This document shows positions 17,300 to 24,854 of a stretch of DNA of 64,000 nucleotides, one piece after another. Position numbers and translations under genes: made by a program. The stretch spans positions 62,001-126,000 of the forward strand of contig JAYKKM010000011.1 in assembly GCA_035772405.1 (NCBI GenBank), written 5' to 3'. The notes below the pieces were generated by a model. That model did not search any database, was not told the origin of the DNA, and saw only the letters and a program-made list of their open reading frames with translations. The first letter of the stretch is position 1, and every line of letters begins with the position of its first letter. Source of the DNA: Chrysogorgia sp. JL179-B06. Lineage: Eukaryota > Cnidaria > Anthozoa > Scleralcyonacea > Chrysogorgiidae.

Positions 17300-17404
17300 T
17301 TAAAGGAGCAGTGTCACCATCTGCGCATTTCTTCTGCGCATATTTTTTTATTTTCGGAATATGTCGGAATAGGACGGAAATTGCTTCGTACTGCCCAAAG
17401 CATC

Positions 17405-18944
17405 ATGGAGGCGTCGGTGAGTAAGTAAATGAATGCATATATTTGCATTTATTTATTGGTGAAATAGACTCTTGCTGAATTTAAAATACAGGTTAGCCAT
17501 TGCTGTTGTAAAAGTTCGTGTGCCACAAAAAGAAAGGAAGATAGCACCAGAGGTTGCCCGTGCAAGGGGAAAAACGTCGAGTGTTCTGTCGACTGCAAGT
17601 GTGGAACTCGCAATAAACCTTGCAAGAACAGGGTATGTTTGCCAATAAAAATCTATTTAATATTTCTTTCATAATATTTTATATTATTGTGGTCAGGAAA
17701 TATCTTTCACGTTTAACTTTTTGTTGTTACAGGGAAATGCAGAAGAAAATAGAGTGCGCGAAAGATCATCGCTTCGATCGAAAGAAGGATTTCGTGGTTT
17801 AACGAAATCAAATCGAAATGTTGAGATTGAGGATCAGCAAAGAGAAAAGGAACATAATGATGTAAAGGTATTTGACTTCGTAATTCATGGACATATACTG
17901 CATTAAAATACATTCGAGTCAGCCTGTAGCTGTAGTTGAATTATAAAAACATGACAACATAATTTTTCAAAACATACTGTATATTTGTATACACAATTAA
18001 CACAAATTATGAGCAAACTACCTTATCATATGAACCAGGCTAACTGGAAAAGCTGAGTAAAATTTTGCGTGTTCAAATTAGATATGAGCTACCCGGTTTA
18101 ATATAATGGAGATGGGGCTTGATTTAACTAAATAGTAAGTTTGTATACTAAGCAAAAAATGTAGTAAACTAACTTTAGCATGCACACAGTAATCACAGTA
18201 ATCACAGCAATGCACGAGTCAATTCTTCCTGTTACCATCCCCCCACCCTGGGCAATACCCTGGGGATTTGTAAACAAATTTCAAATTCATAGCAAATTTC
18301 CCACCCGTGGGACTTAGAAATTTGTAAATTCCTCGCTTTTTGCATATTTGAAAGGAAAAATTTAGTCAACAATTTAGACTCCCCGAATGTCCTCCTAATT
18401 TTTTGATCAATCCCCACCATTCCCCTGGGGATATATCGGATCGGAATTTATCGGATCGGTAAATTGGATATTTCCTTGATCGGCTTACCCCTAGGTGGGG
18501 CCTTTGAGATGGGGGCCATTAATAGAGATATATGGTACCATGTAAATAACTAGTAAATATCACATATGATTTGTTATAATTATGCTATAAAATCTATAGG
18601 CATTCATTCATACACTTGATGAGGAGACAGTGCGAAAACTGGCAATAAGGGGTCTGAGGCGAGGAATCGGGAGTATGGACTACATCCACACTCTACTGAT
18701 TGCAGAGGATGATCTGGATGAGAACATACCTGTAGAGCTTTTGGATGACTTTAGTGATGAACCTGCTGAGGTAGAGGATACAAGTGGAGCAAGTCATCAC
18801 CAAGGTCAAGACACAACAGGAGATCTTGATGCTGCCCCTTCCTGGTGTGTCTGCTCAAATTGTAGGCCAATGCCTCAAGAAATTGAAAACAAGTGCTGCA
18901 GACAGAAAAAGTGCATAACACTTTCCTCTTGGAAATATTTCTAA
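17405..18944 (+). CDS. Kolobok second protein: CXC-type cysteine domain plus P2X7-ballast-like motif (4 exons)
   Basis: Proposed exons are 17405-17416, 17492-17632, 17733-17867 and 18600-18944, all phase 0 with GT/AG boundaries (GTGAGT, GTATGT, GTATTT donors). The 210-residue product has a CXC-like cluster in exon 2 (HCCCKSSC, then GCPCKGKNVEC, CKCG and KPC), a basic/charged linker in exon 3, and in exon 4 an acidic linker followed by WCVCSNCRPMP and NKCCRQKKC. The last block matches the start of the cysteine-rich cytoplasmic ballast domain of P2X7. It stops 12 residues after the last Cys, so the ballast domain is truncated or more exons exist. A DNA-binding or accessory transposition role is inference. 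Confidence 0.75.
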
Positions 18945-19801
18945 AAATATGATATTGGGTCATTCCAGAACCCCCCCCCCCTCCGAGGAAATTGGACATT
19001 GATCACCCTATCCCCTGTGTACTGTACATCTTTGTTACTTTGCTATTATCAGAAGTATTAGATCATTACTAACTATTATCAGTATAATGATCTCATAAAC
19101 TAAAACACACCTGGCTATTGGTACAACATTCTCTCTAAAATTGTTATTGCTAACCTTAAGGACACTCTCTTGGGTGTATACACCAGACTGAGACTGTTGG
19201 CACATTCAATTCCTCCTGTGTGTCTGTAGGATAAAAAAAAGACAATGTTTCCAATTCTTAATTTTGGTACAGGTGTATGTACCACAGAATACTAGTATTT
19301 TAAGATCTTGTTACAAACTTTGAACGAAACCTGCTATTTATTGTACTTTATTTTTGTTAAAATGTATACATGTTAGTCTTAACAAACATATAAATCCAAA
19401 AATAGAGCAAATAAATTCTTAAAAATACTTTGGTTTAGCAAGAAAAATATTGAACATCATTGAGCTTTTTTATTGTGTTACCCAGATATAACCAGTTCAT
19501 TTATACTGGAAAACTGTACTTTTTTATAGAAAATTGTTATTTTGTACACACTACTGACACTACTTGTACGCTGTGGTGATTTTAGAATTTCCTTATAATT
19601 TAAGTTACCAACATTTTTGTGCATCATTAGTATGCAACAAATTCAACATTATAAATGATACATCAGGATTTTTCACAAAAAGTTCAATTCAACAAAAAAT
19701 AATAAAGTCTACCAAATTCAACCCTAAAAATCCTCAGGAAGAAAAAATACAGCAAAAAACAATGCCTAAAAGAATGTAAAAAATATATTAAAAATATTTA
19801 C
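18945..19801. other. Gap between the two Kolobok genes
   Basis: AT-rich sequence between the convergent genes. I looked on the minus strand for the missing transposase C-terminal exons and on the plus strand for further ballast-domain exons and recognised neither. Confidence 0.4.
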
Positions 19802-22800
19802 CGAAATCGTGTATAGTACTTGAAGCTTTCTAGCAGTTCTGGATTGAGGATGACCTTCTGTAAAGCAATAAAGTCTTGGTCCCGTCTGTCAAACCAAGGC
19901 AGATTCTCATCATGTTCACCATCTGCATGCTCACATTTACCACCTAACCACTCATGTGAATTACACATATGATGAAGAAGTCCTAGCCATTTGTCCTGTA
20001 TGTGCGAAAAAAATAATCAGTTTGCATGTGTGCCCAAATATGTATTTTGTGTATTCGTTGAACAATGGAAGAGATGCTATACCTTCATTATTCTTAGTGC
20101 TTCAGCATCGGATGTGGAATCATCCTTCCGGCATTCACTAGAACAATACCAGAAGTGTCGCACAACATGTTTTGACCAGTCTTTGATTTTGCTCATGGCC
20201 TTTGGTTTACTAATCTGATAAAATTAAATGAGAAAACCAAAATATGGATGAGAAACATTAGCCTAATTAAGCTACAGTGTAAATGACTAAGACATAAGAA
20301 CCTCATTATACTTCCCAATGGCTCCATCCCCACTTGCAGTACAGAAGGATTTGGGGTTTTGGTCATATTATTGCATGCTAAAGATTTGAACTAATAACTA
20401 TAAATTTGCACACTGACTGACCTTTGCAAGACACTTCTTAATACATTTTGACTTGTGCCAAACATCTAGACTGTGCAAGACATCCTTAAATTCAGTTTCT
20501 TAAATAGGAGAATTTGTATTAATTTATTAAACAGGCAATGATGTTCATCATCATGCAAAGTTACAAAAGACATTTTAAGCATTGCATCCCAGAAAGGTTA
20601 AACATCGGTGTCTGGTGTTACACCTGTACTTGTAATATCTAATCAAAATTAAACAGCGATCTTACTCACCTATTAATTTCTTAATTGAAGAAGATGCATC
20701 AGTTACCAACTCAACAACATGTACATCTTCTTGCAGTTTTTTCAAGGATCTCTTTACTGCTTCCCGTTCCATATTGGTAGAAACCAAGCCAACATGGCGT
20801 TTATCGAGCACTTCAACATGTAATATATAATTTGAATTTACTTCTACTAAAAAGTAGCATAAATTCTTGGCATTAAAACCAGGAGAATCACATTGACCAT
20901 CCCCACCAATGATTATACCTTGGCCCAAAAACTCACCCACAAGCTGGCCCCTCATCCAACCCCACCACTCATCCACTGCTGGGAGTAAATATAATCGCTG
21001 TATTCTAAAATACGATGATTTGGATGGAAATGCCAAATTCAAAAACTTGGCCAAACGACTAATCTTGCCATAATTACTTCCTGAGAGCATCAATGCAGCA
21101 GAAGTTTGAACGTTGTTGACATATAAGCCATTCACCGCATGTGAAGAACAGAATCTAAATGCATGTCCAGATTGACATGAGCAGTTAACAATTATAGTTG
21201 TCCCCACAAAATGATAAGTTATGTGTGGAACATTTGCACAACCAGGGGTCTGACAGCATCTGGCAAATACCTCCAACAGTAAATCCAGGGAACAGATAAA
21301 TCTTTTTTCATTTGCCATCTTGAACTCTTTTTCAAGGGCATACATCTCATCTCCTCGACTAAATTTAGGATGTGGTCCATATCCTAAACCAACATTTTCA
21401 TTAAGGTTGTGTGAAATATCTGTTGGAACTGATTCGGATGAGTAATCTTTGTCATTATCATAATTGTCGTCTTCATTATTATCATAACATATCAGATCTT
21501 GCATAATATCTTCATCATCTACATCTTCGTCATCTACATCTGATTCTCTATAAAAGAAGTTAAAAAAATAATAGATATTTAAAATAAAATGACAACTGGA
21601 TAGGAAATGTGAAACAATTTTGCAATAACCCACACTTTTACTGTCCATATGACCACCTCAAATGATCAGACAGACAAAATGATCAGACAGACACAGACAG
21701 ACAGACTAGTATGCGGAGAGAATAGATAAGTGTACTTTTAAAGAATATACTGTACACGATGACTTACTTTTCTTCCTCGAGGTTTTCTTCAGCATTTAAA
21801 GCTTCAATTGCTGAACGAGTGAGTTCATGAACCCTGTCAACATAAAATAAGTCACAATCAGTAATTTAATATATACCAGTTTAATAATGAAACATTCAAC
21901 ACCCAACATAGAAGGAATGGAAAGCTGAGTCCCATATTCCCTTTTTAGATTGTTTAAATTTCTTCCATTCTTAAATTTAGTGTTAATATGAGTTTAACCA
22001 TAATATGTGATAAGAGATCGATAAACCTTAAACTGTCATTTAACACGCTATTACTATTGGAACCAGTCAGTATTGGAACTGTACATACCCAACACTTTCA
22101 TCAGAACTTGTATCTTCTAACGAGTCTCCTTCATCATCCGAAAACATTGAGGTATTTGCTTCTCTTCCAACAACTGAATCTGGCTCTTGGGTTAATGAAG
22201 TATCCAAACTACAATGCAACACTGATGGTGTTAACCATTATTTGCATTATACTTTACTTTGAAGAATCAAACAGACTACTTATAATTGGGTTATTAAGAA
22301 GATACATGGATGTATTGTAGTCTAGTTAACCAATTGTGATGCTCTTGACAGGTAAAACCACCTTGCATTACACAAAATAAAATAACAAATAGGGCACACG
22401 ATATCTTAATTTGCTATGTACAGCAAGATATTTTAATTATTTTAAACTTATATGGTACAACTAAGAGAATCCAAGAGAACAAAACAGGATTATGGATATA
22501 TAACTCACCTCTCATGAAATGAGGAACTGGAAAATGTGCAATCTATATCCATTTCTGCTCTTTCATTATGCCCTGCTTCCTTACCACTAGTTATGGGAGA
22601 CTCAGTTTGGAGAATTATCATGTCAGTAGATGGTTTATCTTTACATGGCGTAGACGTTTGTGGTCCTACATAAAACAAAGTATAATTAAAATTATTGTAT
22701 ATTCAGTCATACAATTTGATCGAAAATATAAACATGAAAAACAACGCAATCTTGAAACTATTGTTTAAACTATTAGTTCAAATGGTTCCTGGATGGGTAT

Positions 22801-23285
22801 TCTAAAATCACTCAAACTAATATTCTCACCTTGACTGATGTTTATAGCACATTCTTCAGACTCTTCAGCCATTTGACTGTCAATGGTAATGTCGTCTTCT
22901 TGTGTTGACATTAGAATTTGACCTCGTTCTCGTGGAATATCGAAAGTAGATCTGCAATATATCCAAAGAAAAAATACTAGTCAGTTGTTTACCGGTTTAT
23001 GCACTATTAATAAAAAGATAAATCAACGAAAAATGCCAGGAAACTTACTTACCTTCTACGAAATTCTAAGGACAATAAGTGTGCAGCAAAATCGTTATGA
23101 GTTGATCGTTCATATCCAGCAACTATTTTCGCATTTGACCATGTCTCGAAGATATTTTCAGTCAAATATATCTTTCTATGTGCCTTTCCCCATGCTTTTC
23201 TTAATGCTTTTTTATTTGCAAACGCTTTCCTTCGGCCGGAATTCTCTCTTGCACCACCGTGAGTGGCACCTTGTTTAGACGCCAT
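19802..23285 (-). CDS. Kolobok DDE transposase, nine exons, C-terminal end missing
   Basis: Exons on the minus strand: 23053-23285, 22830-22951, 22509-22665, 22089-22208, 21768-21833, 20670-21547, 20422-20498, 20083-20214 and 19802-19995. All junctions have GT/AG and phases agree, giving 659 codons. The N-terminus has a GGARENSGRRK AT-hook-like start and an acidic exon block. A Cys/His cluster (CCQTPGC, CSCQSGHAFRFCSSH) precedes the catalytic core. Candidate catalytic acids are in GDGQCDSPG (about 20895), LVTDASS (about 20700) and LDVWHKSK (about 20465). A further HFWYC / CNSHEW Cys-His region follows. Expected C-terminal exons were not found between 18.9 and 19.8 kb, so the copy may be incomplete. 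Exons 1 to 9 show no stop. Confidence 0.85.
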
Positions 23286-23396
23286 CTTGGATTTTAAAAC
23301 TTGAAAAGGTTGGCCCAATCTTTTCAAGTTTGTGTATGCGCAGAAGAAATGCGCATGCGCAGAAGAAATGCGCAGATAGTGACACTGCTCCTTTAA

Positions 23397-24433
23397 GCAT
23401 TCCCCGCAATGGCCAGAAACTGTAATTAGATGACCGAAATATGGGGACGCCATCACAACTTAATGTAATGCTCGTTGCATTTGGATCATCAATTAGAGCC
23501 CCATTGCCAACTGATTTGTACATTTGGCCATCGAAAATATCTTCTATTGTATCATCTGCCATTTTATGTCTGTCAAAACGATAACTTAAATCCAAGGTTT
23601 CACCTTGGCGGTCAAATAGATCTTCCAATTGTTTTTCAAGGGGGAGATATATGAAAAAGTTACCATCTTTGAGAAGGGTTTTTTTCATACTCAATCCCAC
23701 ATATCAAACATTGCAGTGTGTCTGATGAGTCAAGCAATGTCTTGCAACATGGACAGAAAAGATTAAAGGGGAGGCCATCTTTAAATATATTAAAGTGCTT
23801 GTAAAATAGGAACTTTGTCTGGGGCAACCGAGAATCACTAGGCAAAATTAAACTTAACAGCTTAAGCAACTCTCCTACCGCAGCACCAGACAATTTGTTC
23901 CCAAGAATAAAATACATCAGCAACAACAAGCACTGGTCATTGGCGCATTTTCATAAAGAGGTTCATCATGTTCCTGTCAGTTTTGGTATTCATACAGGAA
24001 TTGTATTCCTAATTATTCATAAATAATTAAATAAACCTAACCCTCTCCCCCCAAACACAATGAATGACCATATTAAAAGGCTAAATATCCCAAATGGCAA
24101 ATATTTCTTACAAATCAATTCCCATGACATGAGAACCATACCTTCATTATTATTAGCCATGCCAGTATCTCTATTTATGGTGTCCTCTTCATCTTGCTCA
24201 TCGTCATTATGATGATGATGATGATCTGAGTCTTGTGGTTGTATATTTTCAATTTCAGCATGACCATCCAAGAGGTCCGCTGACGATTCATTTAAATTAT
24301 GAAATTGAGAACGACGCCAATTAGTTGTCTTAGGCACAACGGCGTTATACTCATCATCATCTGCTGTCAAATTATATAGTTTATATCTTCCACGTTTCTT
24401 TCTAACAGCTCCTGAATCCGCCATGTTTTCCAT
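23397..24433 (-). pseudogene. tnp2-like (CACTA/EnSpm-type) transposase remnant interrupted by Kolobok
   Basis: Two exon-like blocks on the minus strand: 24142-24433 (starts near a MADSG peptide with a basic KKRGRYK segment and His-rich acidic tail, ends at a GTATGG donor) and 23397-23973. The second encodes a hydrophobic LLLLMYFILGNKLSG segment, a CPCC...CLICG zinc ribbon, a FFIYLPLEKQLEDLF block and an ITLSCDGVPIFRSS block, all features I associate with tnp2-type transposases. A frameshift lies near 23940. The frame ends where the Kolobok TTAA begins. No convincing continuation was seen on the far side of the Kolobok element. The family call is from pattern only. Confidence 0.6.
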
Positions 24434-24854
24434 GTGATGACCATTGAGTGCTCGGGATCTGGGAACAAATACGCTAATGCTGGATAAACCGGAAATCAAA
24501 CACCACTATAAATTACTACATATTTTATTAAAATATGAAAGCATAACTAAGAAAAATGTTGTAATTTTAAATGCTTATGTTTCGAGCTATATAATTAAAC
24601 ATATGCATTTAAATCACATTAACTGCAGTTATTCTTGAAACCTGTACACGTCACTCATATTTGTGAACACAATTGAAAAATCACTTCCTTTTGAACATGT
24701 GATCAGTGACGTTGAAGTTGTCACGTGAATAGTCTCATATATTGGCGGCGCATTATTCAAAACCGAAGGCGAAGAAAGAAAGAATTTCCATCTAAAGCGT
24801 CGAAGAAGAATATATATTGTAGTATTTAGCGCAGTTAACTTACTTCTAAACCAA

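Follow-up and report, generated by a model that had tools for sequence, protein, structure and literature searches.

A KolX-bearing Kolobok transposon in Chrysogorgia, truncated where its transposase gene and its P2X7 ballast-related gene face each other

The window analyzed here, a 64,000-nt stretch of the Chrysogorgia sp. JL179-B06 genome, contains a minus-strand transposase gene and a plus-strand cysteine-rich gene inside one TTAA-bounded unit. This arrangement raises the question of whether the second gene belongs to the transposon, how it relates to the ballast domain of the P2X7 receptor, and what it could do for the element. Kolobok transposons were first described by Kapitonov and Jurka, as cited in PMC9587614. 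Kojima and Bao (2022, PMC9587614) report KolX as the second protein of the originally reported Kolobok families and match the KolX of the Kol0 lineage to the P2X7 ballast, whose seven cysteines it shares. In their account, P2X7 came about when KolX was fused to a P2X4-like gene, Kol0 is present in vertebrates, annelids, cnidarians, and sponges, and a KolX-like part is also seen in piggyBac families. They give the Kolobok transposase signature as C/DxxH between the second D and the E, with a zinc finger between DxxH and E. Free-standing ballast proteins, corals included, had been found by Rump et al. (2020), whose article (PMC7016195) nowhere uses the word stem 'transpos'. A full-text search of the literature returned a single paper that mentions KolX. 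We consider it probable that the locus as a whole is best explained as a copy of a recently active DNA transposon with two genes that belongs to the Kol0 type, which carries KolX, and its identity as a Kolobok element with KolX is, taken by itself, close to certain. The first-pass annotation was right that a relative of the P2X7 domain bears on where that domain came from, but the origin from KolX is already set out in PMC9587614, and the accessory function that it had called unrecognized in Kolobok concerns a protein that the same article reports as the second of the element.

The element is a TTAA-bounded DNA transposon of 6,097 bp spanning window positions 17300–23396, exactly as it had first been delimited. 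TTAA target-site duplicates lie at 17300–17303 on the left and 23393–23396 on the right, and inside them are terminal inverted repeats of 38 bp at 17304–17341 (plus strand, AGGAGCAGTGTCACC...) and 23355–23392 (minus strand), so that the earlier description of a fully bounded element with 38-bp ends is borne out, with one mismatch. When TTAA is included, 42 of the first 42 positions align, again with one mismatch, and the inverted pairing reaches 43 nt if one extra pairing flank base is counted. The ends inside TTAA read AGGAG...CTCCT, satisfying the Kolobok 5'-RR ... YY-3' rule. A search of the assembly (781 Mb, 522 contigs), in which 40 of 708 candidates were scored and which therefore gives a lower bound, returned at least five further copies of full length between TTAA sites (L009–L013), 98.46–98.88% identical to the window copy where aligned. 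Each of the six full-length copies has TTAA on both sides, and the duplication is also found in L014 and L016. The flanks differ between most of the copies, and the unit therefore moves. Two pairs of copies share one flank only: L011 and L012 have 60 bases of left flank in common and not the right flank, and L011 and L013 have the right flank in common and not the left. This one-sided sharing could reflect nested repeats, recombination, or assembly joins.

Within the right part of the element, a palindrome occupies 23297–23331, on the side of the transposase start that faces the right end and 11 bases past its ATG; a second family has a comparable palindrome (in L016). The subterminal TGCGCA repeat has an additional 19-bp copy (23336–23354) at the right end of the window copy, which the other five lack. 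Outside the element, the right flank contains a minus-strand open frame (23397–24505, with ...LSCDGVPIFRSSNYSFWPLRGML...), which we take to resemble another transposase class; compared with Pfam, this frame gave nothing over the cut-off. The Kolobok copy may thus be nested within another element.

On the minus strand, the window copy of the transposase gene reads in phase through ten exons with GT/AG borders, comprising 2,048 coding bases and 682 residues. Starting from the ATG at 23285, exons 1–5 occupy 23053–23285, 22830–22951, 22509–22665, 22089–22208, and 21768–21833. Exon 6 (20670–21547) carries GGDGQCDSPG and VTDASSSI, with the presumed first and second catalytic D, and exon 7 (20422–20498) the DVWH motif. 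These are followed by exon 8 (20083–20214), exon 9 (19802–19995), and exon 10 (19155–19223), in which HTGGIE contains the presumed catalytic E. The nine phase-consistent exons of the first-pass annotation thus become ten in the window, out of eleven; the nine-exon reading, made from the window alone, was rejected, as 19155–19223 is the tenth exon from the start and the eleventh has been deleted. The L009 protein matches the Mutator-like transposase family PF20700 with 32.5 bits (cut-off 26.5), and its DDE triad, placed by motif and not by structure or by alignment with Repbase families, falls on D449, D516, and E666, with DVWH at 537 between the second D and the E. The window copy keeps the same D/D/DVWH/E motifs. 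By eye only, C/H residues can be seen between DxxH and E (YCSSEC ... CNSHEWLGGKCEH). In L009, the AG expected before transposase exon 7 is replaced by AT, and L010–L013 have frame lesions in transposase and KolX alike; two plainly intact genes were found together in none of the six full-length copies seen, and none of the six looks autonomous.

The plus-strand gene, KolX, has four exons, all of phase 0 and with GT/AG borders, in agreement with the four-exon cysteine-rich protein first proposed for this strand, apart from a shortened exon 4. Exon 1 (17405–17416, donor GTGAGT) is followed by exon 2 (17492–17632), which encodes a nine-cysteine CXC-like domain, exon 3 (17733–17867), and exon 4 (18600–18944), which encodes a conserved middle module and the first part of the ballast and, being truncated, retains six of seven zinc cysteines. 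The reading is intact in L009. KolX therefore consists of a nine-cysteine N-terminal domain, a middle module, and a P2X7-type ballast. Against the Pfam family P2RX7_C (PF20478; cut-off 23.5), the L009 protein scores 92.5 bits (E 4.1e-26), and even the truncated window reading remains over the cut-off with 26.2 bits. Matches of L009 KolX to four distinct solved P2X7 sequences range from E 1e-14 to 2e-11. The transposon-borne relative of the P2X7 cytoplasmic domain that had been predicted from the window, together with the profile check proposed for it, is thereby confirmed. Seven cysteines align between L009 KolX and P2X7 (C179, C181, C184, C195, C196, C201, and C267), and from this alignment they are taken to be the zinc cysteines of the published P2X7 work. 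Among the best 120 of 248 matches, the top-scoring named relative belongs to the octocoral Dendronephthya gigantea, at 62% identity, and a partial match from Paramuricea clavata reaches 76%. An AlphaFold model of the Dendronephthya relative (P0001), built with 34 alignment rows, is of poor quality, with a mean pLDDT of 55.5 and a pTM of 0.24. Separately, a 192-residue protein of Oculina patagonica (P0129) combines a piggyBac transposase domain (PF13843) with a ballast part (PF20478), which agrees with the piggyBac–KolX link described in PMC9587614.

Comparison with the other full-length copies locates an internal-deletion junction at 18927–18929 of the window copy, with a 2-nt overlap. The deletion is absent from all five other full-length copies, and its size comes to 709 bp when measured against L009, 730 bp against L010, and up to about 732 bp across the five. 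In L009, the 3' ends of KolX and the transposase gene face each other about 75 bases apart, and the stretch missing from the window copy comprises the last part of KolX and, on the opposite strand, transposase exon 11. The window KolX has thereby lost residues 207–289 (83 of the 289 in L009), including the seventh zinc cysteine, and the transposase has lost exon 11, i.e., the last 116 of 798 residues. A single internal deletion at the facing 3' ends thus broke both genes of the window copy, and the transposase gene, which had been taken as complete, lacks its last exon through the same event that shortened KolX exon 4. At most, other copies might mobilize the window copy in trans.

Both genes recur together at other loci. 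A second family (L015–L017), about 67–87% identical to the window family in matched pieces, likewise has the two genes convergent, and their exon boundaries are consistent. Among 12 further loci, fetched out of the places on the lower-bound list, the two genes are convergent in 10, and TTAA-type ends are found on both sides in five (L022, L023, L026, L029, and L031). The first-pass annotation had proposed a search for TTAA-bounded elements with both genes and had made its case depend on the plus-strand gene recurring in other copies; the former search is answered by the second family and the convergent pairs, and the latter point by the presence of KolX in all eight loci that were first matched only in transposase exons 6–10. 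Two loci, L024 and L025, initially listed via the left end and transposase exons 1–3, contain transposase pieces and no KolX; each has one TTAA-type end and the first transposase exons only, and both are likely internally deleted derivatives. Across 12 loci, a set that includes the frame-shifted L029 and the near-identical L022 and L023, ballast distances correlate with those of the catalytic region (r 0.48; 0 of 5000 label shuffles as high), and this correlation supports the co-inheritance of KolX and the transposase.

The cysteines of KolX exon 2, nine in all, follow the order CxC-x3-C-x(n)-CxC-x(n)-C-x3-CxC-x(n)-CxN. This pattern is found in 9 of 137 relatives among the matches listed, most of which are exon 4-only readings, and in seven of the nine relatives with at least 60 residues before the middle module; of the other two, the first is incomplete at its N-terminus and the second is short of a cysteine. 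None of 7000 shuffled N-termini shows it. Among the matches listed, the named hosts of the full pattern are Dendronephthya, Paramuricea, Oculina, Porites, and Actinostola. A search with residues 10–66 of P0007 returned three proteins among four candidates, P0007 itself included, and one with residues 1–130 of P0083 returned 18 proteins, of which every named one is anthozoan. In Pfam, the Tesmin/TSO1 CXC family (PF03638) failed the test: one of four N-terminal pieces matched, with E 4.5 and 8.1 bits (cut-off 23.5), and another piece gave a better, still sub-cut-off match to the unrelated NIR_SIR family (E 0.035). Nor was a TCR (PF03638) match found among the nine members of A1. Comparison of a KolX N-terminus profile with CXC domains of the same genome gave 45% probability across 33 columns and outscored all 300 column-shuffled controls, for a CXC profile of six distinct and mostly near-identical sequences and an alignment in which the first CxC pairs are out of register. 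The evidence for calling the N-terminus CXC-like, by its apparent resemblance to Tesmin/TSO1 CXC, is suggestive, as is the support for the 'CXC' label in the first-pass annotation. The term 'CXC' does not occur in the main text of PMC9587614, beyond which the domain may or may not already be known, and no article in the literature searched combines 'Kolobok' with 'CXC domain'. As a side observation, among the matches listed, 19 places in the genome (L032–L043) pass the Pfam cut-off for a Tesmin/TSO1 CXC domain, and five of them are in open frames of 380–391 residues with a near-identical domain, which look like another repeated element.

Substitution rates were compared between the families. 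With the NG86 method on filtered codons (those with local identity under 0.45 dropped), dN/dS between L009 and L015, L016, and L017 is 0.20, 0.19, and 0.15 for KolX, 0.25, 0.26, and 0.24 for the transposase, and 0.07–0.08 for the ballast, where L017 yielded KolX in part only and several sub-segments gave no value. For the CXC-like exon alone (45–47 codons), NG86 gives 0.605 and 0.548 against L015 and L016, and YN00 places dN above dS (0.136/0.081 and 0.148/0.071, respectively). A second, unfiltered set was limited to the top tblastn piece of each segment and to pairs whose dS lies in 0.05–2, and omits L010–L014, L018, L019, L023–L025, and L029. Its median dN/dS is 0.18 for the CXC-like part (12 pairs), 0.10 for the middle module (5 pairs), and 0.10 for the ballast (6 pairs, range 0.055–0.328; 0.055–0.118 in four L009 pairs), and 0.19 for the catalytic region (17 pairs) and 0.17 for the C-terminus (14 pairs) of the transposase; no pair in this dS range reaches 1. 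From these values, which rest on few pairs, some with high dS, KolX is under a constraint close to that of the transposase, which is clearest for the middle module and ballast, and both genes have been kept by selection across families. Comparable constraint on the two genes argues that the element needs KolX.

These data bear unequally on what KolX could be. The reading of KolX as a host gene, P2X7-like or nanor-like, beside a transposon insertion has practically no probability left: the ballast domain is known from host proteins as well (PMC7016195), but KolX lies wholly within the TTAA unit and travels with it across different flanks, by which this reading is refuted. A captured host domain carried as a passenger, with no role for the element, is very improbable. 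The broken KolX readings of the window copy and of four of the five other full-length copies would fit such a passenger, as would L024 and L025 with transposase pieces alone and the YN00 result for the CXC-like exon, where dN exceeds dS in two comparisons of roughly 45 codons. However, all three KolX parts stay below a dN/dS of 1 in every pair kept, the four L009 ballast pairs lie far lower still, KolX adjoins the transposase in every one of the loci reached through exons 6–10, and Kol0 with KolX is known from several phyla (PMC9587614); the selection on the middle module and ballast largely refutes the passenger. A regulator, which would repress or activate the transposase gene or shield the element from host silencing, e.g., by binding the palindrome, is unlikely but deserves serious weight. 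The palindrome close to the transposase ATG, with its counterpart in L016, would suit this role, and a DNA-binding-like N-terminus is compatible with a regulator or a cofactor alike; a cofactor predicts the same selection pattern, and selection does not separate a role in transposition from one in regulation.

On balance, judging from the sequence comparisons, we lean towards KolX being a needed transposition cofactor. Such a cofactor would bind zinc in both halves and be supplied in trans together with the transposase, which would itself perform the TTAA cut-and-paste chemistry. The CXC-like half might touch DNA, perhaps at the subterminal TGCGCA repeats or the right-end palindrome, and that it binds DNA at all seems to us somewhat short of an even prospect. 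The ballast half would bind the transposase or a nucleotide, and KolX as a whole would help to build or regulate the transposition complex. A further step, offered tentatively and with doubt, is that the ballast evolved as the working half of this cofactor, steered to DNA by the CXC-type N-terminus, and that P2X7 took over the ballast half only. If this were true, the first job of the ballast would have been in a transposon nucleoprotein complex, and P2X7 would have left the DNA-binding half behind. The P2X7 ballast belongs to an inflammation receptor. A KolX-rich transposon family, with the ballast beside a conserved cysteine-rich N-terminus and under purifying selection, offers a direct way to probe its job before the receptor. 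What is new here is modest, namely the internal deletion, the data on co-occurrence and on selection, and a CXC-like N-terminus conserved in anthozoan KolX.

Compared with the Kol0 elements with KolX described in PMC9587614, the element has the same TTAA duplication, RR...YY ends, DDE-type transposase with DxxH, and ballast-homologous second protein; unlike the published Kol0, the present copy is truncated, and it is assigned to Kol0 putatively, by its KolX. With the Tesmin/TSO1 CXC domain (PF03638), the N-terminus shares, by eye, nine cysteines in a similar order ending in CxN, whereas its first spacer is longer and it stays under the Pfam cut-off. With the P2X7 ballast domain, or ZCD (PF20478; PMC7016195), L009 KolX has seven cysteines in common, six of which persist in the window copy, and KolX differs from P2X7 in adding a nine-cysteine N-terminal domain and a middle module in a protein without the P2X channel.
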